A DNA stretch of 62,300 bases. It comes from Phenylobacterium sp. (lineage in GTDB: Bacteria > Pseudomonadota > Alphaproteobacteria > Caulobacterales > Caulobacteraceae). Numbering within the stretch: position 1 is the stretch's first letter; each line of letters opens with the position of its first letter. The stretch spans positions 1-62,300 of the forward strand of contig JADBYZ010000008.1 in assembly GCA_020402745.1 (NCBI GenBank), written 5' to 3'. A program made the translations under genes and the position numbers. The notes beneath the pieces were generated by a model. That model was not told where the DNA came from. It did no database searches and saw nothing but the letters and a program-made list of their open reading frames with translations. Below are positions 51,214 through 62,300 of this stretch, piece by piece.

Positions 51214-52152
51214 ATGGATCCGCATTTCAAGGCCATGCTGGAGGCGGAAGCCGCCGCTGCAGCCGGCCAGGAGGTCCCGCCCCTCGACAGCCTGCCGCCG
51301 GACATGGTCCGCGCCGGCTACGTCATGCAGCGGACCAGCCAGAACACCGGAGCGCCCAAGGATGTGGCGACCCGCGACCTGCAGGTGGACGGTGGCGCGG
51401 GCCCGGTCGGCGCGCGTCTCTACACCCCCGCCGGCGCGCCGGCGACGACTCCCGGCCTCGTCTATTTCCATGGCGGCGGCTTCGCGATTGGCAACCTGGA
51501 AACCCACGACGGGCACTGCAGGCGCCTTGCCGCCTATTCCGGCTGCCGGGTCCTGGCGATCGACTACCGCCTGGCGCCGGAGAACCCCTTCCCCGCCAGC
51601 CATGACGACTGCCTGGAAGCGACGAAATGGGCGATCGACCATGCTGCAGAGATCGGCTTCGATCCCACCCGCATCGGGGTCGGCGGTTGCTCGGCGGGCG
51701 GCAATCTCGCCGCCTCGGTCGCCATCGACCTGAAGGCGGACCAGTCCCGTCGCCTGGCCTTCCAGATGCTGCTCTATCCCTACATCTGCCCTGAGACCGA
51801 GACCGAGAGCCGCAAGCGGATGGACGGTCCCCTGCTGACCAAGGCGGCCATCGACTGGTTCGTGAAGTGCCTGGCCGCCGAGGGGCACCCGCAGATCGAC
51901 CGCGTCATCCTGGGCTCGAAGGTCGACGTCTCCGCGACGCCCGCCGCCTACATCGTGACCGCCGGCTACGATCCCCTTCAGGACGAGGGACGCGACTACG
52001 CTCGCCGGCTTGAGGCCGCAGGGGTCCCGGTGCGGCACGTCCATTACCCGGACATGCTGCATGACTTCTACATCATGGGGGATGTCTCGCCCGCAGTGGA
52101 GGTCGCCGCCCGCGAGGCGGGGGAGGCCCTGAAGGCGGCCCTGACCGCCTGA
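51214..52152 (+). CDS. alpha/beta hydrolase, hormone-sensitive lipase family
   Basis: The 312-residue esterase has the HSL-type oxyanion motif YFHGGGFAIGN (about 85-95), the nucleophile in GGCSAGGN (about 160-167) and the C-terminal Asp and His in AGYDPLQDEG and DMLHDFYIMG. The alternative HGGG start marks it as family IV. It would hydrolyse short acyl esters or lactones. AGGAGG precedes the ATG. It probably belongs with the acyl-CoA ligase just upstream. Confidence 0.92.
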   Translation: MDPHFKAMLEAEAAAAAGQEVPPLDSLPPDMVRAGYVMQRTSQNTGAPKDVATRDLQVDGGAGPVGARLYTPAGAPATTPGLVYFHGGGFAIGNLETHDGHCRRLAAYSGCRVLAIDYRLAPENPFPASHDDCLEATKWAIDHAAEIGFDPTRIGVGGCSAGGNLAASVAIDLKADQSRRLAFQMLLYPYICPETETESRKRMDGPLLTKAAIDWFVKCLAAEGHPQIDRVILGSKVDVSATPAAYIVTAGYDPLQDEGRDYARRLEAAGVPVRHVHYPDMLHDFYIMGDVSPAVEVAAREAGEALKAALTA

Positions 52153-52182
52153 CGCCAAGGGGCCCGCCTCCGGAGGGCGGAC

Positions 52183-53403
52183 CTAGCCGGGTCCGGCAGG
52201 CTTCGCCGCTTCTGCAGAGGTTCCGAGCTCGTCCCGGACCTTCTGGCTCCAGGCGAGAACCGCCATGCCCAGCGCGCCTGAGAGGATGGATCCGCCGATC
52301 ACGCCAAGGCGGACCGCACTCTGCGCGGTCGGGTTGTCAGCGTCGAAGGCGAGGGCGCCGATAAACAGGCTCATGGTGAAGCCGACGCCACAGAGCAGCG
52401 CGCAGCCGTAAATCTCCAGCCAGGTCGAGTCGGTCGGACGCCGGGCGAGCCCCAAGCGGATGGCCAGCACCGCGGCGCCGAAGACCCCGATCTGCTTGCC
52501 GATGAAGAGACCGGCGGCGATGCCGATCGCCACGGGACTGAGAAGGTTTTCCGCCGAAAGGTCCCCGAACGAGAAGCCCGCCGCTGCAAACGCGAAAACC
52601 GGCATGACGCCGTAGGCCACGTAGGGGTGCAGGCCGTGCATCATTTGCTTGAGCATCCCGGTCTCGCCGGGCCGCCGCGGTTCGATCGGAATGGTCATGG
52701 CCGCTGCGACCCCCGCGATGGAGGCGTTGACCCCGCTTTCCAGGGTGAAGGCCCAGACAAGAAAGGCCAGGACGGCGAAGAGCCCGTAGGGCGCGCCCCG
52801 CCAGCGACCGGCCAGGGCCATGAGGGCGAGCACGAAGCCCGCACCTCCCAGGGCGACGAGGTCGATCTGTTCGGTGAACAGGGTTGCGATCAGCACCACC
52901 GCGCCAAGGTCATCGGCGATGGCGAGGGTCAGCAGGAAGGTCCGCAGGGCCATGGGCAGTCTGGGGCCAGCGATGGCCAGGGCCGCGAGGGCGAAGGCGA
53001 TGTCCGTGGCGACCGGCGTCGGCCAGCCCTCAAGGGCTCCCCCGGGGCCCAGGTTGAAGGCGAGATAGACGACCGCTGGCACGACCATTCCGCCGACTGC
53101 GCCGAGGACCGGAAGGGCCAGCTTACGGGGGTTGGACAGTTCACCGCGCAGGATCTCGTGCTTGATCTCCAGCCCGACGACGAAAAAGAAGATCGTCATC
53201 AGGCCGTCCTTGATCCACTTCAGGACGGTCTTGGTGATCTCGATGTCCCCGGCCTGGAAGGTCAGGGGATGTTTGATCAGGCCGAAATAGCTGTCCGCCC
53301 AAGGGGAGTTCGCCAGCAAGATGGCCAGGACCGCCGCCAGGGCCAGGATGATGCCCGAGGCGGCTTCGGTCTTGAGGAAGGCGAGGGTGATCTTGCGGCT
53401 CAT
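52183..53403 (-). CDS. nhaA: Na+/H+ antiporter NhaA
   Basis: NhaA exchanges two protons for one sodium ion across the inner membrane in pH and salt homeostasis. The 406-residue protein has about 12 membrane segments and the ion-binding aspartates Asp134 (VATDIAFAL) and Asp164/Asp165 (IADDLGAVV), aligned with Asp133, Asp163 and Asp164 of the E. coli protein. The N-terminal EAASGIILALAAVLAILLANSPW is typical. It is monocistronic and divergent from selO. Confidence 0.96.
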   Translation of the reverse strand: MSRKITLAFLKTEAASGIILALAAVLAILLANSPWADSYFGLIKHPLTFQAGDIEITKTVLKWIKDGLMTIFFFVVGLEIKHEILRGELSNPRKLALPVLGAVGGMVVPAVVYLAFNLGPGGALEGWPTPVATDIAFALAALAIAGPRLPMALRTFLLTLAIADDLGAVVLIATLFTEQIDLVALGGAGFVLALMALAGRWRGAPYGLFAVLAFLVWAFTLESGVNASIAGVAAAMTIPIEPRRPGETGMLKQMMHGLHPYVAYGVMPVFAFAAAGFSFGDLSAENLLSPVAIGIAAGLFIGKQIGVFGAAVLAIRLGLARRPTDSTWLEIYGCALLCGVGFTMSLFIGALAFDADNPTAQSAVRLGVIGGSILSGALGMAVLAWSQKVRDELGTSAEAAKPAGPG

Positions 53404-53482
53404 CGTTTCGGGTTAGCATGCGTCGGGCGATTGGCAAGGATCAGGACTTGCGACCCGGCCGCGTCGCAGTCATTTCGACTCT

Positions 53483-54907
53483 ATGCCTTTCTCTCCGGAT
53501 TACTCGCCTGACCCCCGCCTCGTACAACTCGGCCCCGACTTCGCCGATCCGGTCCGGGCCGCCGACTTTCCCCGGCTGGACCTGCGCTGGCGAAACGACC
53601 GAGCGGCGGCGAGCGTCGGGCTGGCCGAACTCAACGGTGCCGAATGGGCCGATCACTTCGGCCGGTTCCAGCCGCTTCCCGGCAATCTGCCCGAGCCCCT
53701 GGCCCAGCGGTATCACGGACACCAGTTCCGGGTTTACAACCCCGATCTCGGGGATGGCCGGGGCTTCACCTTCGCCCAGCTGCGCGAGACCGGCTCCGGC
53801 CGCCTCCTTGACCTCGCCACCAAGGGATCCGGCGTCACGCCCTGGTCGCGCAGTGGGGACGGACGACTGACCCTCAAGGGCGGCGTGCGCGAGGTGCTGG
53901 CGGCGGGCATGCTCGAGGCCCTGGGCGTTCCCACCTCCCGAGCCTTCTCCCTGATTGAAACGGGAGAGGACCTGGTGCGGCAGGACGAGCCGAGCCCCAC
54001 GCGCTCGGCTGTCCTGGTCCGGCTCAGCCACAGCCACATCCGGTTCGGGACCTTCCAGAGGCCGGCGGCCCTGGAGCGCCCGGACCTGGTCCGTAGGCTG
54101 GTGGACTACACCCTGGAGATCTACTTCCCCGCCAGGGTGGGGGAGGCTGATCCTGGCGCGGCCCTGCTGGACGAGGCTTGCCGGGGCGCCGCCCGCCTGA
54201 CCGCCGCCTGGATGGCCGCAGGGTTCGTGCATGGTGTCCTGAACACCGACAACATGAACATCACCGGGGAGAGCTTCGATTACGGGCCTTACCGGTTCCT
54301 GCCGCACAGCGATCCCAACTTCGTGGCCGCCTATTTCGACCATGCGGGCCTCTACAGCTTTGGCCGCCAGCCGGAGGCCGTCTTCTGGAACCTGCGCCAA
54401 CTGGCGGGATGTCTCCTGATGGCGGGATCGCCCGAGGATGCGCTGGTGGAGGTTCTGAACGGCTTTGGAGATCTCTATCGGGAGGCGCTGGCCCGGGCGG
54501 TGGTGCGTCGCCTGGGCCTGACCTTCCGGGGGGATGGTTCGGACGCCCGGCTGGTCGGCGCCGCCTTCGCCGCCCTGGCCGCGGGCGGTGCGGAGATCCG
54601 CTGGGAGCCGTTCTTCTTCGACTGGTTTTGCGGCGACGAGGCCCGGGCCCTGGCCGGCCCCAGGGGAGAGATCTATCGCAGGCCGGAGTTCGAGGACTTC
54701 CGCCGGGAAGTGGCCGGGGCTGAGCCAGACCGTCCTGAGCGGCTGGATCACCCCTTCTTCCGGCGCGAGTCGCCGGTCGAACTCCTCATCGACCGCATCG
54801 AGGGGATCTGGGCGCCCATCGCCGCCGCGGATGACTGGTCCCTTTTCAACTCCGCCATGGCGGAGATCGAGGAGGCCAGGATGGCCTGGGGGCTTCAGCC
54901 AGGCTGA
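53483..54907 (+). CDS. selO: SelO-type protein adenylyltransferase (YdiU/UPF0061)
   Basis: SelO is a pseudokinase that transfers AMP to proteins and has been linked to redox stress responses. The 474-residue protein shows YHGHQFRVYNPDLGDGRG, the LDLATKGSGVTPWSRSGDGRLTLKG segment and the metal-binding NTDNMNITGESFDYGPY. Length matches bacterial SelO. The C-terminal selenocysteine of vertebrate forms is absent. Its 3' end overlaps the convergent DMT transporter gene by 13 bases. Confidence 0.93.
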   Translation: MPFSPDYSPDPRLVQLGPDFADPVRAADFPRLDLRWRNDRAAASVGLAELNGAEWADHFGRFQPLPGNLPEPLAQRYHGHQFRVYNPDLGDGRGFTFAQLRETGSGRLLDLATKGSGVTPWSRSGDGRLTLKGGVREVLAAGMLEALGVPTSRAFSLIETGEDLVRQDEPSPTRSAVLVRLSHSHIRFGTFQRPAALERPDLVRRLVDYTLEIYFPARVGEADPGAALLDEACRGAARLTAAWMAAGFVHGVLNTDNMNITGESFDYGPYRFLPHSDPNFVAAYFDHAGLYSFGRQPEAVFWNLRQLAGCLLMAGSPEDALVEVLNGFGDLYREALARAVVRRLGLTFRGDGSDARLVGAAFAALAAGGAEIRWEPFFFDWFCGDEARALAGPRGEIYRRPEFEDFRREVAGAEPDRPERLDHPFFRRESPVELLIDRIEGIWAPIAAADDWSLFNSAMAEIEEARMAWGLQPG

Positions 54908-55764
54908 GCGGCCGGGCGCGCCGCCCGCTGGGCCAGGACGACCCCGGTCAGGGCGATGGCGCCGCCCAGCATCTGGCCGGGTCCGAAGACCTCTCCGAAC
55001 AGCAACCAGCCAAGGACCGTCGCCACCACCGGCTGGACCAGGACGACGACCGAGGTGACCGAGGCGGGCAACCGGCCCAGCGCCCAGGCGATGGCGCCCT
55101 GTCCAGTCACGTGCATGATCCCAAGACCCACGCAGGCGGCCCAGCCACCGGGTGTCGCGGGCATCAGGCGTTCGCCCAGCAGGCCTGAAGCCGCCAGAAG
55201 CAGGGGCGCTGCGGTGAGGCTGGACCAGAACATGACCTGGGCGGCCCCCCGGGTCCGCCGGGCGTTCTGCACCGCCAGGAAGTAGAGGGCATACCAGACG
55301 GCCGTCATCGCCGAGAAGGCGTCTCCCAGGGCAGGGTTGACCCCCGGCAGGCCCGGGTCGCGCGCCAGGGTCATGAGGCAGGCGCCGCCAATCGCCAGGG
55401 CGACCGCGGCCAGGAAGAGGGGGCGGACCCGCTCGTGGAAGACAAGCCAGGCCACGCCAGTCACGATCACCGGCGTCAGATTGGACAGGATGGTCGCCTT
55501 GGCCACGGAAGTCAGGGCGATCCCGTAGTGCCAGAAGGCCAGGTCCAGCGCGAAGGCGGCCCCGGCGAGCCCGAGCACCCATCCCGGCGGGCCGACGCCT
55601 CCGCTTTCCCGCCGCGCAAGCAGGGCCAGGAGGGGCAGGGCGAAGAGCATGCGCCAGAACCCGACCGCGGCGGGCCCGGCGTCGGCCAGGCGCACGAGGA
55701 TGGGGGCGAGGCCGATGATGCAGGCGCCAGCGACGAGAACGATCATGGCGGTGCGGCGTTCCAC
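54895..55764 (-). CDS. DMT superfamily (EamA) transporter
   Basis: This is a ten-helix drug/metabolite transporter with two EamA repeats, about 289 residues from the GTG at 55764 or 283 from the ATG at 55746. The opening VLVAGACIIGLAPILVRLADAGPAAVGFWRM and the second-repeat segment VTSVVVLVQPVVATVLGWLLFGE are typical. It probably exports a metabolite or amino acid, but the substrate is unknown. It follows the gluQ gene within 10 bases. Confidence 0.86.
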   Translation of the reverse strand: MERRTAMIVLVAGACIIGLAPILVRLADAGPAAVGFWRMLFALPLLALLARRESGGVGPPGWVLGLAGAAFALDLAFWHYGIALTSVAKATILSNLTPVIVTGVAWLVFHERVRPLFLAAVALAIGGACLMTLARDPGLPGVNPALGDAFSAMTAVWYALYFLAVQNARRTRGAAQVMFWSSLTAAPLLLAASGLLGERLMPATPGGWAACVGLGIMHVTGQGAIAWALGRLPASVTSVVVLVQPVVATVLGWLLFGEVFGPGQMLGGAIALTGVVLAQRAARPAAQPG

Positions 55765-55774
55765 ACCGCCGCTC

Positions 55775-56626
55775 TCAGCGATCTCCGTCAAGGTCAAGCT
55801 CCGCGATAAGCCAGTCCGGGCTGACGCCCTGTTCGCGAAGCGACTGCAGGGTCTCCGCACGATCCCGCTTGGCGTAGCGCTTTCCATCGGGTCCGACCAG
55901 CAGCCGGTGGTGTCGATAGACGGGCTCTGGCAATCCAAGCAGGACCTGGAGCAATCTCTGGACGTGGGTCGCTGCGAAGAGGTCGCACCCACGGACGACC
56001 GTCGTGACCTCCTGGAAGGCGTCGTCCACGACGACGGCGAGGTGGTAGGCTACGCCTATGTCCCTGCGGGCCAGGACAATGTCCCCCGCCGAGTCCGTCT
56101 GGGCGATCTGGCGCCCGGTCTCACCCGCAGGTCCCGCCCCGGTCTCGAGGAAGCTGAGGGGCCCCGAGCGTTCAGCCGCCGCACGGACGTCGAGCCGCCA
56201 GGCGAACGCCTCGCCTGCCGCGAGGCGGGCCGCCTCCTCCTGTTTCGGCAGGCGCTCACCGAAGAACACGACCTCGTCCCCGTGCGGCGCCCGGGTCATG
56301 GCGTCGGCCACCTCACGCCGCGTCCGAAAGCAGCGATAGGTGAGCCCCTCCTCAGCCAGGTGGGCCAACGCCGCCTCATAGGCCGCCCCGCGTCCGGACT
56401 GGCGCAGGACCGGACCGTCCCAGTCCACACCTAGCCATGCGAGGTCTTCAAGGATGCCCGCTTCGAACTCCGGGCGGCAACGGACCCTGTCGATATCCTC
56501 GATCCGCAGCCGGAAGGCACCTTTGGCCGCCCTGCAGGCGCGCCAGGACATCAGCGCCGAAAAGGCATGACCCCGATGAAGACGCCCGGTGGGCGAAGGC
56601 GCGAACCTGAAGACCGGCCCCGCCAC
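55775..56626 (-). CDS. gluQ: glutamyl-Q tRNA(Asp) synthetase
   Basis: GluQ-RS attaches glutamate to the queuosine base in tRNA-Asp. The 283-residue protein is a truncated class I synthetase with FAPSPTGRLHRGHA (HIGH-type motif 17-20), RIEDIDRVRC and a KRYAKRD motif in place of KMSKS. No anticodon-binding domain is present, as expected. The start appears to be GTG at 56626. It lies nine bases downstream of a TetR gene and just upstream of the DMT transporter, an apparent operon. Confidence 0.93.
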   Translation of the reverse strand: MAGPVFRFAPSPTGRLHRGHAFSALMSWRACRAAKGAFRLRIEDIDRVRCRPEFEAGILEDLAWLGVDWDGPVLRQSGRGAAYEAALAHLAEEGLTYRCFRTRREVADAMTRAPHGDEVVFFGERLPKQEEAARLAAGEAFAWRLDVRAAAERSGPLSFLETGAGPAGETGRQIAQTDSAGDIVLARRDIGVAYHLAVVVDDAFQEVTTVVRGCDLFAATHVQRLLQVLLGLPEPVYRHHRLLVGPDGKRYAKRDRAETLQSLREQGVSPDWLIAELDLDGDR

Positions 56627-56635
56627 GTCAGCTTT

Positions 56636-57268
56636 TCAGCCGGCGGCGACCGCGGATCTCGGACGGAACAGGTCCAGCTGGCTGAAGATCGCCCGAAGGA
56701 AGGCTTCCTCTCCGCCCAGGCGGGCCTGAAGGGGCCCGAACTCCTTGAAGCCCACCATCTCGGCGACCCCGTGGGCGGCGCACCAGATGGCGACGGCGGC
56801 AAGCTCCAGGCCGACTTCGTCCCTGGGGTCGATACCGGACTCCACGAGGGTGTCGCAGACCAGGCGGTAGGCGCCCTCGTCGCGCAGCTTCTCCGGCATG
56901 GATTCATGACTCTGGCTGCAGTTGAACATCACCCGGTAGATGGCGGGGTTCATCCTGGAGAACCGCACATAGGCGACGCCCAGAGTGACCAGTCGATCGC
57001 GACCGGGCGCAGCCTCGGCGAGGGCGGCTCGCATCTGTTCTGCAAGCTGGTCCCATCCCTCGAAGGCAAGGGCGTCAAGGAGTTCGCTCTTGTCTCGGAA
57101 GTGATGATAGGGGGCGGCTGGGCTGACGCCAGCCTCCCGGGCCACCGCCCTCAGGGAGATGCCCGCGCCGCCTTCAACCTCCAGAAGGCGCCGACCGGCG
57201 TCGACAAGGGCGCGCCGCAAGTCGCCGTGGTGATAGGGGCGGGCTTCAGTCAGTTGGGCCTGTTCCAT
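56636..57268 (-). CDS. TetR/AcrR family transcriptional regulator
   Basis: The 210-residue repressor-type protein has the N-terminal helix-turn-helix GISLRAVAREAGVSPAAPYHHFRDKSELLDAL (about 36-67). Its ligand domain of the WHG class contains FSRMNPAIYRVMFN. It heads an operon with gluQ and the DMT transporter. Upstream and divergent lies the first of two LIDR mini-genes, and operator-like palindromes are found near the second mini-gene promoter. It could therefore control these or its own operon; the ligand is unknown. Confidence 0.9.
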   Translation of the reverse strand: MEQAQLTEARPYHHGDLRRALVDAGRRLLEVEGGAGISLRAVAREAGVSPAAPYHHFRDKSELLDALAFEGWDQLAEQMRAALAEAAPGRDRLVTLGVAYVRFSRMNPAIYRVMFNCSQSHESMPEKLRDEGAYRLVCDTLVESGIDPRDEVGLELAAVAIWCAAHGVAEMVGFKEFGPLQARLGGEEAFLRAIFSQLDLFRPRSAVAAG

Positions 57269-57360
57269 GAAATCTCAGTAATGGGGAACAGAAACCGGGG
57301 CAAGCCAATCTTGACAACGATCAGATCAGCCCCATCTCGCAAGTGCAGCAAAAAAACGGC

Positions 57361-57374
57361 CCCGCTCCCCCGGG
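57361..57374 (+). promoter_or_regulatory. shared 5' UTR element, copy 1
   Basis: CCCGCTCCCCCGGG occurs here, 35 bases before the ATG of the first LIDR gene, and again at 57661. It can form a CCCG/CGGG stem with a C-rich loop, extended here to GCCCCG/CGGGGC. The loop could pair with ribosome binding sites. Confidence 0.6.
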
Positions 57375-57395
57375 GCGCTAACTCAAAGGTGTGTC

Positions 57396-57503
57396 ATGTC
57401 TCTCATGTCTGTTCTGCGTCTCATCGATCGCCTGACCCCGGCCTATCTCCTGGCCCTGGTCTTTCCCCTGGCCTTCGCCTCGCTGGCGTCGTTCACGGGA
57501 TAG
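57396..57503 (+). CDS. small LIDR membrane protein 1 (35 aa)
   Basis: The frame from ATG 57396 encodes MSLMSVLRLIDRLTPAYLLA followed by LVFPLAFASLASFTG. It has an LIDR motif and then one hydrophobic span. A weak ribosome site (AAAGGTG) precedes it; an internal ATG at 57405 is an alternative start. It is followed 19 bases later by an intrinsic terminator, so it forms a single-gene unit. A second unit of the same design begins 300 bases downstream. I do not recognise the family; function is unknown. Confidence 0.65.
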   Translation: MSLMSVLRLIDRLTPAYLLALVFPLAFASLASFTG

Positions 57504-57521
57504 GCCTCTCGCATACGGCGC

Positions 57522-57549
57522 AAAGGGCCCCTGTTCGGGGCCCTTTTTT
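57522..57549 (+). terminator. intrinsic terminator of LIDR gene 1
   Basis: The stem AAAGGGCCCC (57522-57531) pairs with GGGGCCCTTT (57537-57546) around a five-base loop, followed by TTT. It is a strong rho-independent terminator. Confidence 0.9.
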
Positions 57550-57593
57550 GTTGCCGGGTGCGCCGGGTCGGAAGGGCGCTGGAGCGCGCCTGA

Positions 57594-57659
57594 ACATTTT
57601 TACAAATGTATCTTTACATCGCTCAGATGTCTGGTATCTAAGCGGTGTTCAAATTGAAC
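57594..57659 (+). promoter_or_regulatory. promoter and operator region of LIDR gene 2
   Basis: A promoter can be read as TTTACA (57613-57618), 16 bases, TATCTA (57635-57640). Upstream is the inverted repeat ACATTT-TTAC-AAATGT (57594-57609), similar in style to AcrR operators. At the expected transcription start is GTTCAA-A-TTGAAC (57647-57659), a perfect palindrome. Both are likely protein-binding sites. The region is strikingly AT-rich for this genome. Confidence 0.65.
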
Positions 57660-57660
57660 G

Positions 57661-57674
57661 CCCGCTCCCCCGGG
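57661..57674 (+). promoter_or_regulatory. shared 5' UTR element, copy 2
   Basis: This is an exact second copy of CCCGCTCCCCCGGG, 39 bases before the ATG of the second LIDR gene and just after the predicted transcription start. Its match with 57361-57374 supports a common regulatory or processing element. Confidence 0.6.
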
Positions 57675-57699
57675 TTCCTCCAAAAGAAGGTTTACGTCC

Positions 57700-57822
57700 A
57701 TGTCCTCGCTCCCCGCCCCCCTCGCCTTCGCCGTCAACCTGATTGATCGCTCCGGATCGATCTTCCTCCTGTCCCTGGGCCTCGTGGCCGCGATCGGGAA
57801 CCTGATCCTGATCCTCCCCTGA
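57700..57822 (+). CDS. small LIDR membrane protein 2 (40 aa)
   Basis: The frame from ATG 57700 encodes MSSLPAPLAFAVNLIDRSGS followed by IFLLSLGLVAAIGNLILILP. Like its upstream neighbour it has an LIDR motif just before a hydrophobic span. AGAAGG lies nine bases before the ATG. It has its own promoter, operator-like palindromes and an intrinsic terminator 33 bases after the stop. The two products look paralogous though diverged. Function is unknown. Confidence 0.68.
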   Translation: MSSLPAPLAFAVNLIDRSGSIFLLSLGLVAAIGNLILILP

Positions 57823-57854
57823 TCACCGGTCTCTCCATTCCAGACTCCTCCCCT

Positions 57855-57887
57855 GGGGGCCCTGTCAAAGGGCCCCCTCTTTTTTTG
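57855..57887 (+). terminator. intrinsic terminator of LIDR gene 2
   Basis: GGGGGCCCT (57855-57863) pairs with AGGGCCCCC (57869-57877) across GTCAA, followed by TCTTTTTTT. It is similar in sequence to the terminator of LIDR gene 1. Confidence 0.9.
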
Positions 57888-58023
57888 TCTCGGAACCGTC
57901 ACTGGGCGCCGCCGCGAGAATCGTCACCATACTGGAGCGGCACAGGTTGGAGCGCAGGGAGGCGTATCTTCACACGGCGACCTCAGACTTCAGTCCACAA
58001 GGCCTGTGCGATGGGAATGGTCC

Positions 58024-58584
58024 ATGCAGGTCCTTGACCAGGCTCCGTCCGGGTGGCCCGCGCTTGTCCTCAACGCGGACTTCCAACCCCTGAGCTATTA
58101 TCCTCTGTCGCTTTGGTGCTGGCAGGATGTCGTGAAGGCGGTTTTTCTGGACCGTGTGGATGTGCTTTCCACCTACGACCAAGAAGTCCGGTCGCCCGCC
58201 TTCTCAATGCGCTTGCCTTCGGTCATCTCCCTGAAGTCCTACGTCGCCCAGGACCGCGCGCCCGCCTTCACGCGCTTCAACGTCTTCCTTCGCGATGGCT
58301 TCGCCTGCGCCTACTGCGGTCGCGCCGAGGACCTGACCTTCGACCATGTGGTTCCACGGTCGAGAGGCGGACGAACGAGCTGGGACAACATCGTGGCCGC
58401 CTGTTCCCGCTGCAATCTCGACAAGGGCGGGCGCACCCCGGAGGAGGCCCAGATGTCCCTCAGGCGCCGGCCGGTGCGCCCGACCACCTGGCGCCTCCAG
58501 GAACAGGGGCGGCGCTTCCCGCCGCATCATCTGCACGAGTCGTGGATGGACTATCTGTACTGGGACGTCGAACTGGATCCCTGA
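58024..58584 (+). CDS. HNH endonuclease family protein
   Basis: From the ATG at 58024 the protein has 186 residues. The N-terminal half (VLNADFQPLSYYPLSLWCWQD) is typical of a widespread HNH family of alphaproteobacteria and cyanobacteria. The C-terminal half has the zinc-knuckle HNH core: CAYCGR, LTFDHVVPRSRGGRTSWDN and CSRCNLDKGG. It is a predicted DNA nuclease of unknown physiological role, usually a stable housekeeping gene rather than a mobile one. A GTG at 58006 is a less likely start. Confidence 0.9.
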   Translation: MQVLDQAPSGWPALVLNADFQPLSYYPLSLWCWQDVVKAVFLDRVDVLSTYDQEVRSPAFSMRLPSVISLKSYVAQDRAPAFTRFNVFLRDGFACAYCGRAEDLTFDHVVPRSRGGRTSWDNIVAACSRCNLDKGGRTPEEAQMSLRRRPVRPTTWRLQEQGRRFPPHHLHESWMDYLYWDVELDP

Positions 58585-58601
58585 CCGGGCGTTATCCGCC
58601 G

Positions 58602-59159
58602 TCAGATCTTCTCGCTGATCCGGATCGCCGCCCGGCATCCAAGCCGGATGGCCGCCGCAAGGAGCGGGTAGCCTGGCGCCTCCCGTGCGCCCTCCTCCAC
58701 GGCGAGGTCCCGATGCGCCAGTTCCTCGTCGCGAAAGCCTGAGAGTTCCGCCGCAAGCTCAGGATCCCGGTCCGCCAGTTCAGCGACCTGCCGGGCGTAG
58801 TGGTCTCCGATCACCGTCTCCACAGCCTCGGTACAGGCGTGAGCGGCCTTCTCCCCCAATAGGGCGGTCCCAGCCCCGAGGGTGAAGCCCGCCAGGCGCC
58901 AGAGCGGCGTCATCAGTGTGGGACGGACCCTCCGTTCCGCAAGCAGGGCCTCGAACCTCGCCAGGTGGCGAGCCTCATGGGACTCCATTTCCTCCAGCTG
59001 ACCGGCGATCCGCTCCTTTCCGGGGGCCTCGCCGAGGATGGCCCGCTGGCCCCGATAGATGTGGACAGCGCCCAGCTCGCCGGCGTGGTCCACCCTCAGG
59101 ATCTCGGCGAGACGGGCCTGGCCCGCCCCGGCGCCGGGCCGTCGGGGTGCTTGCATCAT
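58602..59159 (-). CDS. coq7: demethoxyubiquinone hydroxylase COQ7
   Basis: COQ7 hydroxylates the ring of demethoxyubiquinone in ubiquinone synthesis, using a di-iron site. From the ATG at 59159, which overlaps the dsbB stop (ATGA), it has 185 residues. Di-iron ligands are visible in VDHAGELGAVHIY, EEMESHEARHL, EAVETVIGDHY and FRDEELAHRD, the ferritin-like four-helix pattern. AAGGA precedes the start. It is the last gene of feoA-feoB-dsbB-coq7. Confidence 0.93.
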   Translation of the reverse strand: MMQAPRRPGAGAGQARLAEILRVDHAGELGAVHIYRGQRAILGEAPGKERIAGQLEEMESHEARHLARFEALLAERRVRPTLMTPLWRLAGFTLGAGTALLGEKAAHACTEAVETVIGDHYARQVAELADRDPELAAELSGFRDEELAHRDLAVEEGAREAPGYPLLAAAIRLGCRAAIRISEKI

Positions 59160-59686
59160 GGTGACTTTCCTTCCCAACGCCAGGCAAGGGCGCCCAGGCC
59201 TGCGAACACCAGTGAGGCCAGGGCGTTCCAGCCCGCCATGGACAGGCCCAGCAGACGCCAGGCGGCGTTATCGCAGGCCGGCGGCCTGACCTTCAGCGTA
59301 CCGTCCAGAAGGCCGGCCATGTTCAGGCTGGACACCGATCCCCCGACCCCCGAACAGGCGCCTGGACCCGCCCACCACTTCCACTCCACCCCGGCGTGAT
59401 AGGCGGCGAGGCCGGCGCCGAAAAGGAAGATCGCGGCGATGAGGAGCGCCAGCCATGGCCGGACACTCTGCGCCTTCGGGGTTCTGAGCAGGCCGATCCC
59501 GACGAGGGCGACGGCGCCCGCCACCCAATAGACCTCTCTCTGCCTCAGGCAGAGCAGGCAGGGCGCATAGCCCCCGAACCGCTCGAAGGCATGGGCTGTC
59601 GCCAGCATGAAGGCGCTGAACGCCAGGGCGACCGCCGGCCAGGCGGCCGGCAGTCTGTCCCTCAGTCCTGCAGGGAAGTACGCCAT
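59156..59686 (-). CDS. dsbB: disulfide bond formation protein B
   Basis: DsbB reoxidises DsbA and passes electrons to ubiquinone. From the ATG at 59686 the protein has 176 residues and four membrane segments. The first redox pair is Cys43-x2-Cys46 (PCLLCLRQR) and the second is Cys111 and Cys138 (GACSG, PPACDN). The longer upstream frame overlaps feoB and lacks membrane character. Its acceptor quinone links it to the coq7 gene next door, and the DsbA-like lipoprotein at 6456 could be its partner. Confidence 0.92.
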   Translation of the reverse strand: MAYFPAGLRDRLPAAWPAVALAFSAFMLATAHAFERFGGYAPCLLCLRQREVYWVAGAVALVGIGLLRTPKAQSVRPWLALLIAAIFLFGAGLAAYHAGVEWKWWAGPGACSGVGGSVSSLNMAGLLDGTLKVRPPACDNAAWRLLGLSMAGWNALASLVFAGLGALAWRWEGKSP

Positions 59687-59778
59687 GAACGCCTTATCCT
59701 CCGAAACCGGGTCCGGACCAAGTGGCCCCTCATCCCGCCGGGGTCCCGCCCATCCGGGCGAGCATGGCCCGGAAGACC

Positions 59779-61638
59779 TCAGGCCAGCCCGAGCGCGCGG
59801 GACGCCTGGAAGACCAGGAAGGCCGCTGCGTAGGCGAGGCCGAGCATGTAGGCGAACATGATCGATGGCCAGAGCCATCCGCCTGTCTCGCGTTTGACCA
59901 CCGCCAGGGTCGCAACGCATTGGGGAGCAAAGACATACCAGGCCAGGAAGGCGAGCCCTGAAGCCAGGGACCACTGTCGAGCAAGGATACCGGCGAGAGC
60001 CCCTTCCTCGCCACCCACGGCGTAGATGGCCCCGAGGGCGGCGACAGCGACCTCACGGGCCGCCATGCCGGGGATGAGGGCCACCACCATCTCCCAGCTG
60101 AATCCGATGGGAGCGAAGATGGGCTCCAGCCAGTGACCGAGACGTCCGGCGGCGCTGTAGGCGATATCCGGTCCCTCCGCCCCTTCAGGGGGCGCCGGCC
60201 AGCTGGAGAGGGCCCAGACCAGCACCATTAAGGGCAGGATGATCCGTCCGGCCCGGCTGATGAAGGCCCAAGCCTTCTGACCGAGGTTGCGCAGGACATT
60301 TCCGGGTTCCGGCCGCTTGTAGTCCGGCAGCTGCATCATGAAGGGCTCGCTGCCGCCCCGCCAGAATACCTTTCGGATCAGAAAGGCCACCCCCAGTGCA
60401 GCGAGGATTCCCGCAGCGTAGAGGCTGAACATCACAAGACCCTGCAGGCTCAGCACGCCCCCCACGGTGCGGTTCGGAATCAGGGCGCTGATGATCAGGG
60501 TGTAGACCGGGATCCGGGCGGAACAGGTCATGAGCGGCGCGGTCAGGATGGTGGTCAGCCGGTCTCGCCGACTGTCGATCACCCGGGTCGACATGATGCC
60601 CGGGACCGCGCATGCGAAGCTGGAGAGCAGGGGAATGAAGGCCCGGCCATGCAGCCCGGCGCCGCCCATGATCCGGTCCATGAGAAAGGCCGCCCGCGCC
60701 ATGTAGCCGGAGTCCTCGAGGAGCAGGATGAACAGGAAAAGGATGAGGATCTGCGGCAGGAAGACAAGGACTGATCCGACGCCGGCGATGAGACCATCGA
60801 CCACCAGCCCCGTCATCCAGCCGTCCGGCAAGATGGCCTCGGCGCCGACGCCCAGCGCTGCAAACCCGGCCTCGATGAGGTCCTGGGCAGGGGCCGCCCA
60901 GGTGAAGACGGCCTGGAACATCAGGAAGAGCAGCCCAAGCAGGACAGCGACGCCGCCCACGGGGTGAAGCAGGAGCGAGTCGAGGCGGCCGGTCAGGGTG
61001 TCCGGCCGGCTGGGCGGACGCACGGCCGTGCGCATCAGATCCCGTGCCTGGCGGTGCGCGACGCGGACCTCTGAGGCTGCAGGTTCGCGCCAGCCGGAAG
61101 GCGGGGTTGCGGACGATCCGTCGGCCTGGGTGGCGGCGAGTTCGAGAAGGGCCTCCAGCCCCTTCTTCCGGGTCGCCACGGTTGCAGTGACCGGGGCTCC
61201 CAGTTCCCTGGACAGGGCCTCAACGTCGATCTCGATCCCCTGACGCTCGGCGATATCGATCATGTTCAGCACGAAGACCATGGGCAGGCCGGTGGTCTTG
61301 AGCTCCAGCGCGAGGCGCAGCACCAAGCCCAGGTTGGTGGCGTCGGCGACGCAGATGATCACATCCGGCGGCGGCTCGCCGGCCAACCGTCCCAGGACCG
61401 CGTCCCTGGTGATCACCTCGTCCGGAGAGCGCGCCCGGAGGGAATAGGTTCCCGGTAGGTCGAGGATCCGAAGCTGGCGTCCCGTGGGAAGGTTCGCCAG
61501 GCCTTCCTTCCGCTCCACTGTCACGCCTGCGTAGTTGGCGACCTTCTGGCGGCCGCCTGTCAGGGCGTTGAACAGGGCCGTCTTGCCGCAGTTTGGATTA
61601 CCAACAAGGGCGACGGTGGCGATCCTGGTAGGGGTCAC
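59779..61638 (-). CDS. feoB: ferrous iron transporter FeoB
   Basis: FeoB imports Fe(II). The 619-residue protein has an N-terminal G-domain with G1 GNPNCGKT (13-20), G3 DLPG (60-63) and G4 NMID, then a membrane domain with two gate motifs, visible as PLLSSFACAVPGIMSTRVI and GMAAREVAVAALG. The short length fits FeoB forms without an added FeoC-like or NfeoB extension. The start is GTG at 61638, overlapping the feoA stop (GTGA). Confidence 0.95.
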   Translation of the reverse strand: MTPTRIATVALVGNPNCGKTALFNALTGGRQKVANYAGVTVERKEGLANLPTGRQLRILDLPGTYSLRARSPDEVITRDAVLGRLAGEPPPDVIICVADATNLGLVLRLALELKTTGLPMVFVLNMIDIAERQGIEIDVEALSRELGAPVTATVATRKKGLEALLELAATQADGSSATPPSGWREPAASEVRVAHRQARDLMRTAVRPPSRPDTLTGRLDSLLLHPVGGVAVLLGLLFLMFQAVFTWAAPAQDLIEAGFAALGVGAEAILPDGWMTGLVVDGLIAGVGSVLVFLPQILILFLFILLLEDSGYMARAAFLMDRIMGGAGLHGRAFIPLLSSFACAVPGIMSTRVIDSRRDRLTTILTAPLMTCSARIPVYTLIISALIPNRTVGGVLSLQGLVMFSLYAAGILAALGVAFLIRKVFWRGGSEPFMMQLPDYKRPEPGNVLRNLGQKAWAFISRAGRIILPLMVLVWALSSWPAPPEGAEGPDIAYSAAGRLGHWLEPIFAPIGFSWEMVVALIPGMAAREVAVAALGAIYAVGGEEGALAGILARQWSLASGLAFLAWYVFAPQCVATLAVVKRETGGWLWPSIMFAYMLGLAYAAAFLVFQASRALGLA

Positions 61639-61937
61639 GCCGCCTCCCGTTTAAGGATCACATTCATCGCCTCGGCCCGGCGAAGGGCGATCCGGATACC
61701 GTCGACACGCACGGCGATCGGGTCACCTCCTATCGGGCCTTCGTGCAGCACTTCAACCCGGGCGCCCTCGACAAAACCAAATTCCAGGAGCCGCAGTTCG
61801 ATCTCTCGGGCCGTCAACTCATCCGGATCCCGGTCGCCGCCTGTTCGAACCTTGATGATCACGCCCAGGTCCCCAGGGTGAGCCTCACCGAGGATGAACG
61901 GATTCGTTCGCTCGGGGTCTGGAACAGCGTTCGGCAT
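61635..61937 (-). CDS. feoA: ferrous iron transport protein FeoA
   Basis: FeoA is a small SH3-like cytoplasmic partner of FeoB. From the ATG at 61937 (MPNAVPDPERTNPF) it has 100 residues with the family pattern LRLLEFGFVEGARVEVLHEGPIGGDPIAVRVDG. It is translationally coupled to feoB. The 130 bases upstream separate it from a truncated gene; no clear Fur box could be read. Confidence 0.92.
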   Translation of the reverse strand: MPNAVPDPERTNPFILGEAHPGDLGVIIKVRTGGDRDPDELTAREIELRLLEFGFVEGARVEVLHEGPIGGDPIAVRVDGIRIALRRAEAMNVILKREAA

Positions 61938-62069
61938 CAGTCGGGGGTTCCGGGGAAACGAGTGGGTCCGGCTCTTGTGGCTGTACCCCCCTGAATTCGC
62001 AATGTCGCCGGTTGAGTGAACAGACCCGCACGAAAACCCGCCCGGAACTTCCAACCCAGGTCGCCGGCC

Positions 62070-62300
62070 CTACCCGAGACGCGACAGGTCCGCAGCCGCC
62101 TGTTCCAGGATCGGAGACCATTTCCCTGGCTCAGGTTGCCGGTAAAGCCTTGCGTTCGGGTACCAGGGGCAGTCTTCCCGGTCCAGCAGCCAGCGCCAGT
62201 CCGGGACACAGGCCAGAAGCACCCAGGTCGGCCTTCCGAGCGCTCCCGCCAGATGCGCGACGCTGGTGTCGATGCTGATCACCAGGTCCATCAAGTCGCA
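62070..62300 (-). CDS. C-terminus of a TPR/glycosyltransferase-9-like protein (truncated by window)
   Basis: The reading frame enters from the right edge and ends at 62070; about 76 residues are visible. They contain LVISIDTSVAHLAGALGRPTW, the GT9/GT-B nucleotide-sugar site, followed by VPDWRWLLDREDCPWYPNARLYRQ. This ending is typical of large TPR proteins with a C-terminal glycosyltransferase-like domain. The N-terminal part lies outside, so the domain order and length cannot be given. Confidence 0.8.
   Translation of the reverse strand, partial: CDLMDLVISIDTSVAHLAGALGRPTWVLLACVPDWRWLLDREDCPWYPNARLYRQPEPGKWSPILEQAAADLSRLG

Follow-up and report, generated by a model that had tools for sequence, protein, structure and literature searches.

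The locus described here, part of a 62,300-nucleotide window (the whole stretch of DNA analyzed), is best explained as a TetR-repressor/micropeptide module that is conserved in the Caulobacteraceae and whose peptide gene is tandemly duplicated in this genome; we give the explanation as a whole a probability of roughly 0.7. The TetR protein, encoded on the minus strand, probably binds 19-bp palindromes (ATCTnnRCnnYGnTYAGAT) that would cover the micropeptide –35 box, and in most promoters also the –10 box, and that occupy the gap shared by tetR and unit 1. Because the palindromes lie over the predicted promoter boxes and in the shared gap, we propose that TetR represses the micropeptides and probably itself too. 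The repression reading follows from the layout of a TetR repressor with its target, for which Streptomyces offers a precedent: regulators with a divergent neighbor closer than 200 bp usually repress it, according to the portion of the source available (PMC3511530). A small ligand would release TetR, and de-repression would yield a short mRNA that starts with a hairpin exposing the loop CUCCCC (the transcript start being itself a predicted position), continues with a ribosome site (AAGGTGTGTGTC or similar) and the frame, and ends at an intrinsic terminator. The encoded peptide of 33 to 40 aa, whose N-terminus is short and charged (FERxxDR) and which has one putative membrane span, would most likely reside in the inner membrane and modulate a membrane protein or the membrane itself. 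As a secondary output, the C-rich loop, where present, would most likely pair in trans with G-rich leaders. With operator-like sites, an RNA element under constraint, and the repressor presumed to control it all attached to one micropeptide, the inducer, the target protein, and the target RNAs become directly searchable. Since micropeptide relatives are not confined to the window's genus, a common laboratory strain of the family should serve for this.

In the window, the two micropeptide units lie among genes for TetR, HNH, and COQ7 proteins (Table 1). Each unit holds a frame with an LIDR motif and one hydrophobic span, as an earlier note on this DNA had described, and each frame is followed, again as described, by a terminator-like stem-loop with a T-run (57522–57546 and 57855–57877), the second of which separates unit 2 from the downstream HNH gene. 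The 1.4-kb region contains 5 terminator-like sites compared to a mean of 1.1 in shuffles; among relatives, a terminator-like site within 130 nt of the stop was found for 63 of 82 genes of the window's genus versus 6 of 20 of the others. The identical 14-mer CCCGCTCCCCCGGG is present at 57361–57374 and 57661–57674, 35 and 39 bases ahead of the ATGs, and these are its only exact copies in the 2.87-Mb genome. The 300-base distance between the two copies is exact here but is a coincidence that relatives do not conserve, with start-to-start distances of 258 to 471 nt for 41 of the 43 adjacent pairs listed. The units had also been called self-contained, which they are not: they are paired divergently with a conserved TetR gene and equipped with operator-like palindromes. 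On the minus strand (57376–57345), the unit 1 hairpin followed by CGTTTTTTTG resembles a terminator and would halt leftward transcripts ahead of tetR.

Table 1. Features of the TetR/micropeptide locus, in window coordinates
Feature	Position	Strand	Remark
TetR-family regulator gene (210 aa)	56636..57268	-	Pfam TetR_N, TetR_C_33; divergent from unit 1
Operator-like palindrome O1, unit 1, ATCTTGACAACGATCAGAT; –35 like TTGACA inside	57308..57326	.	Exact consensus match
Second site of unit 1, degenerate, at –10 position	57334..57352	.	Poor match; same 26-bp offset from O1 as in relatives
Unit 1 leader hairpin GCCCCG-CTCCCC-CGGGGC	57359..57376	+	MFE and centroid hairpin; covariation in relatives
AAGGTGTGTC, presumed ribosome-binding stretch ahead of unit 1 ATG	57386..57395	+	
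Micropeptide 1, 35 aa	57396..57503	+	Homologues in relatives; in-frame pN/pS 0.43
Intrinsic terminator, unit 1	57522..57549	+	Stem-loop and T-run
Operator-like palindrome O1, unit 2, ATCTTTACATCGCTCAGAT	57610..57628	.	Exact consensus match
Operator-like palindrome O2, unit 2, ATCTAAGCGGTGTTCAAAT; overlaps –10 like TATCTA	57636..57654	.	One mismatch; 26 bp from O1
Unit 2 leader hairpin GCCCG-CTCCCC-CGGGT	57660..57675	+	MFE and centroid hairpin
Micropeptide 2, 40 aa	57700..57822	+	Homologues in relatives; in-frame pN/pS 0.68
Intrinsic terminator, unit 2	57855..57887	+	Stem-loop and T-run

Both frames look coding when compared with their homologues. They are conserved in relatives: a profile matched 143 distinct genes in the fetched loci (102 found by protein and 41 from loci picked by the leader motif itself), and the constraint on them is frame-specific. 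The family consensus is MSL..FER.FDR followed by one span, and LIDR, taken at first as the signature, is the local form of FERxxDR. All 143 genes encode a 19-residue window with mean hydropathy of at least 1.75, free of charge in 141; the best 19-residue Kyte–Doolittle means are 1.87 for micropeptide 1 and 2.64 for micropeptide 2. With sequence pairs pooled irrespective of kinship, in-frame pN/pS was 0.43 for the unit 1 group (12 sequences; 1.09 and 1.9 in the other frames), 0.68 for the unit 2 group (11 sequences; 0.89 and 1.45 in the other frames), 0.51 for a 34-aa group (27 sequences), 0.39 for a 37-aa group (9 sequences), and 0.49 for nine sequences from outside the genus, so that in-frame values of 0.39 to 0.68 in five groups compare to out-of-frame values of 0.89 to 1.9 in the three groups for which these were obtained (unit 1, unit 2, and 34-aa). 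Between unit 2 of the window and unit 2 of the related locus L003, there were 7.0 nonsynonymous changes over 83.8 sites and 3.0 synonymous changes over 36.2 sites, a ratio near 1; because nonsynonymous change is no rarer than synonymous in this pair, we regard unit 2 as the less constrained unit. The proposal of a duplicated small-protein unit holds up, with tandem pairs in many relatives and a frame-specific constraint that is weaker for unit 2.

Both peptides turned up in close relatives when 101 genomes of the genus were searched at the protein level, and micropeptide relatives extend beyond the genus, with FERxxDR and the span conserved across several genera. The profile search matched 127 of 249 Caulobacteraceae genomes at E ≤0.05, the weakest of which (E about 0.02–0.05) may be chance, and 24 of 200 genomes of the order, 23 of these in the same family and one a weak match outside it (E 0.0019); among 289 genomes of the class searched at E 0.001, none matched except the window's own. 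When named genomes were scanned with a DNA pattern, 57 stretches came back under the titles Phenylobacterium, Caulobacteraceae, Alphaproteobacteria, or Pseudomonadota. The micropeptides submitted to the Pfam, NCBIfam, PHROGs, and PADLOC models gave no match better than E 0.06, no description of the family was found among the matches listed from open-licence papers, and the family is apparently unnamed. Ribosome profiling of Caulobacter crescentus revealed 94 previously unknown coding sequences, most of them shorter than 50 aa, as given in the accessible part of that report (PMC4117421), and one of these could be a micropeptide gene.

The window's regulator matches TetR_N (PF00440) at 6.9e-12 (45.4 bits versus a cut-off of 24) and TetR_C_33 at 3.5e-9, and its closest solved sequence is 3on2 (E 2.1e-21). 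Its gene starts 127 bp from the start of unit 1, on the opposite strand. Seventy protein-found loci, window included, hold a micropeptide; 66 of them also hold TetR, and the other four are dispersed paralogues. In all 66 loci with both genes, window included, the two are divergent, at a median distance of 133.5 nt (<200 nt in 65 of 66), and an HNH gene lies within the fetched stretch in 59. The family loci read have the same chromosomal neighbors around them, and the gene beyond tetR in most TetR–micropeptide loci is one that we take to encode a GluQ-type tRNA synthetase. TetR was present in 72 of 119 family genomes, of which 71, the window's own included, had a micropeptide by some route (53 from the profile search); this is a count of presence in the genome, in many cases by search matches (E up to 0.05), and not of adjacency to tetR. 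The sole TetR-positive genome without a micropeptide, G154, carries a distant TetR. Eighteen regions next to TetR genes were retrieved, chiefly for genomes in which the peptide search had given a weak result or none; 17 of them contain the small frame and 15 a same-strand palindrome (strict expression).

For 97 of the 102 protein-found genes, the upstream 170 nt contain the palindrome expression ATCT...C...G..YARAT, in 50 cases at least twice; the same holds for 138 of all 143 genes, while the reversed expression, used as a control, occurred upstream of none of the 102. In the aligned promoters (103 of 143, those holding AGAT-N5-8-ATCT, a core that is consequently fixed by the selection), two 19-bp palindromes, ATCTtgaCacCGctTAGAT over the predicted –35 and ATCTaaGCactGtcCAGAT over the predicted –10, lie 26 bp apart in 79 of 103. 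A stricter consensus has two exact matches in the window's genome, both at the locus and one per unit. A composite of both palindromes matched 20 of 24 chosen genomes (control 0), and the listing gives 31 places: 2 lie ahead of a DUF418 gene, and the other 29 were assigned to micropeptide genes by coordinate or inspection, with only a weak relative in one case (G012) and some of them cut by contig ends. The composite missed four genomes and also unit 1 of the window, whose second site is poor.

Dispersed paralogues (MTF..FER and similar), for which the fetched stretch contains no tetR, carry the hairpin as well as the palindrome (L021, L024, L048, and L058; also, for example, L103, L107, and L133). 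Several of those in genomes G006 and G043 lie at contig ends, as expected of repeated sequence, and ten proteins encoded next to dispersed copies showed no shared function in Pfam searches. A second type of downstream paralogue (L043, L047, L053, L082, L145, and others; e.g. MTNRSIPAFARAADLIVAVLFVSLSLAIAGAS..) is without the CTCCCC loop.

The 14-mer forms a hairpin with the loop CUCCCC, and the RNA-level feature suspected in the earlier note took shape as a covarying hairpin in which this loop is constant. We limited the counts of this motif to the 102 protein-found genes and left out the 41 motif-picked genes to avoid circularity. The leader element is conserved in relatives: CTCCCC, the commonest 6-mer of these leaders, lies no more than 100 nt from the start in 68 of 102 (mean 7.0, maximum 16 in 200 dinucleotide shuffles) and is flanked by at least four pairs in 62 of 102 (mean 0.1, maximum 2 in 200 such shuffles). 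Across 40 distinct 18-mers, taken as one window per leader around the CTCCCC nearest the start with pairing not required, stem pairing was seen in 207 of 240 cells versus 158 on average and 173 at most in shuffles; across 57 distinct 22-mers, it was seen in 269 of 285 cells at the true register versus at most 180 when slid. All five inner stem pairs show changes on both sides (22, 4, 6, 6, and 8 cells, counted irrespective of kinship). When leaders were anchored by the stem only, the best hairpin had CTCCCC as its loop in 50 of 101 distinct leaders, every other loop in the list occurred at most twice, and 14 leaders had no such hairpin. Of the 67 distinct leaders that contain the motif, 55 have MFE folds in which all six loop bases are unpaired. 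Folding energy alone did not mark the leaders as unusually stable (z –0.01 and –0.54), and the RNA evidence is thus the covariation together with the identity of the loop. AAGGTG is present in 63 of 102 leaders, counted over their final 100 nt, and GGTGTGTGTC stands immediately 5′ of the ATG in 44 of 102. Rfam gave no match at gathering score in 52000–62300 and, for six loci at E up to 0.5, only mir-1538 and sR44, far below gathering scores. Among 12 close relatives, with the window counted as one, 6 have no such loop in unit 1, and 8 of 20 chosen loci outside the genus are also without it; CUCCCC therefore cannot be essential to the module. One locus outside the genus (L277) has tandem units with a hairpin each.

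The full complement of the loop, GGGGAG, lies downstream in none of the 68 transcripts with the loop, and GGGAG in 7 of 68, which rules out cis pairing of the loop as a conserved switch and favors a partner in trans, or a protein. A hairpin that acts in cis only, whether as a 5′ cap against decay, in setting translation, or as a protein-binding loop, and that has no target RNA in trans, is a real possibility at somewhat less than even odds: the hairpin adjoins the ribosome site and is close to where the translated mRNA presumably starts, and the peptide and operator are kept where the loop is lost. Beyond the missing cis complement, this account has to face a loop that stays CUCCCC while the stems change on both sides, although a simple cap needs no constant loop, and two leaders from outside the genus (L157 and L163) that each carry two such hairpins with unrelated stems. 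Protein binding by the loop is conceivable, being compatible with the constant loop, the missing cis complement, and the double hairpins alike. We prefer pairing in trans, for which GsrN, an sRNA of Caulobacteraceae, provides a precedent: in the part of that work available, its C-rich 5′ loop, held in a hairpin and the best conserved part of the molecule, pairs with the G-rich katG leader (PMC5869019). GsrN differs in being an sRNA that is usually encoded near general stress regulators, whereas the loop here belongs to a peptide-coding transcript beside tetR. The alphaR8 sRNAs SisA–D also have an anti-Shine–Dalgarno-like C-rich core and several copies per genome, but, as described in the accessible text (PMC12559287), their core is single-stranded UUUCCUCCCU in noncoding RNAs with unrelated promoters, whereas CUCCCC here lies in a hairpin ahead of a frame and the palindromes are shared. 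None of the 143 leaders, taken at lengths of up to 170 nt, contains the alphaR8-type TTTCCTCCCT. Possible, though in our judgment less likely than not, is a wider reading in which one TetR sensor de-represses dispersed mRNAs, each with a membrane peptide and a GsrN-like CUCCCC hairpin that silences or activates G-rich mRNAs in trans; if this were so, one signal would change membrane and translation together.

Ldr and Ibs are type I toxins, short hydrophobic peptides encoded in tandem copies, and the locus resembles them in both respects, but differs in its TetR linkage, its conserved chromosomal place, and in that no antisense gene was identified. Small hydrophobic toxins silenced by antisense RNAs could account for short single-span peptides, tandem copies, and terminators, as well as for the minus-strand terminator-like site inside unit 1; the constant chromosomal neighbors in the family loci read and the tie to a TetR gene speak against such an array, as does the T-run of the minus-strand site, which is present in close relatives and absent from the more distant leaders read. 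One 34-aa member used as a query matched none of 50,697 phage and 72,556 plasmid records, a result to be read in light of the insensitivity of so short a query, and a scan with the sigma-70 consensus, covering that promoter type only, found no antisense promoter-like site within the units. We judge a toxin array very unlikely. It is scarcely credible that the units are a pair of noncoding sRNAs with fortuitous frames: a structured leader, a terminator, and short length do resemble an sRNA, but the constraint is frame-specific, FERxxDR and the span recur across several genera, and relatives that have lost the loop still have the peptide. Attenuation of a downstream gene by leader peptides would likewise involve short frames 3′ of structured leaders, yet in the window both units come with upstream palindromes and a terminator of their own, the HNH gene lies behind a terminator, and neither peptide has a run of one regulatory amino acid, leaving this account with a negligible share of the probability.

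AcrZ and KdpF are small regulatory single-span membrane proteins, and the micropeptides are like them in size and in having one hydrophobic span; in the window, however, no transporter gene lies directly beside the locus. The preferred reading, a TetR repressor acting on micropeptide genes, shares with the TetR/tetA paradigm the TetR_N domain, a divergent target less than 200 bp away, and palindromic sites over the promoter, so far as the available portion of the source describes it (PMC3511530). It departs from the paradigm in that the target is a 33–40 aa membrane peptide and not a pump or enzyme, in that micropeptide paralogues elsewhere share the palindrome, and in that a DUF418 gene joins in the close clade.

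The palindrome pair stands ahead of this DUF418 membrane protein gene in the window's genome (G000:C33:14544–14587; L179 and L224) and in G046. We rejected DUF418 as a core regulon member because the first palindrome is upstream in only 5 of the 9 orthologue leaders printed. Read by eye, these leaders contain GGGGAG in G046, G088, G085, and G005, GGGAGG in G000 and G047, and neither in G007, G045, and G015. DUF418 mRNA was likewise rejected as a conserved target of the loop, three GGGGAG leaders besides that of G046 being without operator; as the GGGGAG leaders mostly have no operator, regulation and complementarity do not go together for this gene. Across the whole genome, the palindrome pattern with up to two mismatches has 111 sites, well beyond the micropeptide loci, compared to 16 for the reversed control. 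In many promoters, for example L155, a half-site pair (GTAAAGAT/ATCTTGAC) overlaps and precedes the first palindrome, which suggests that the repressor may bind as an array.
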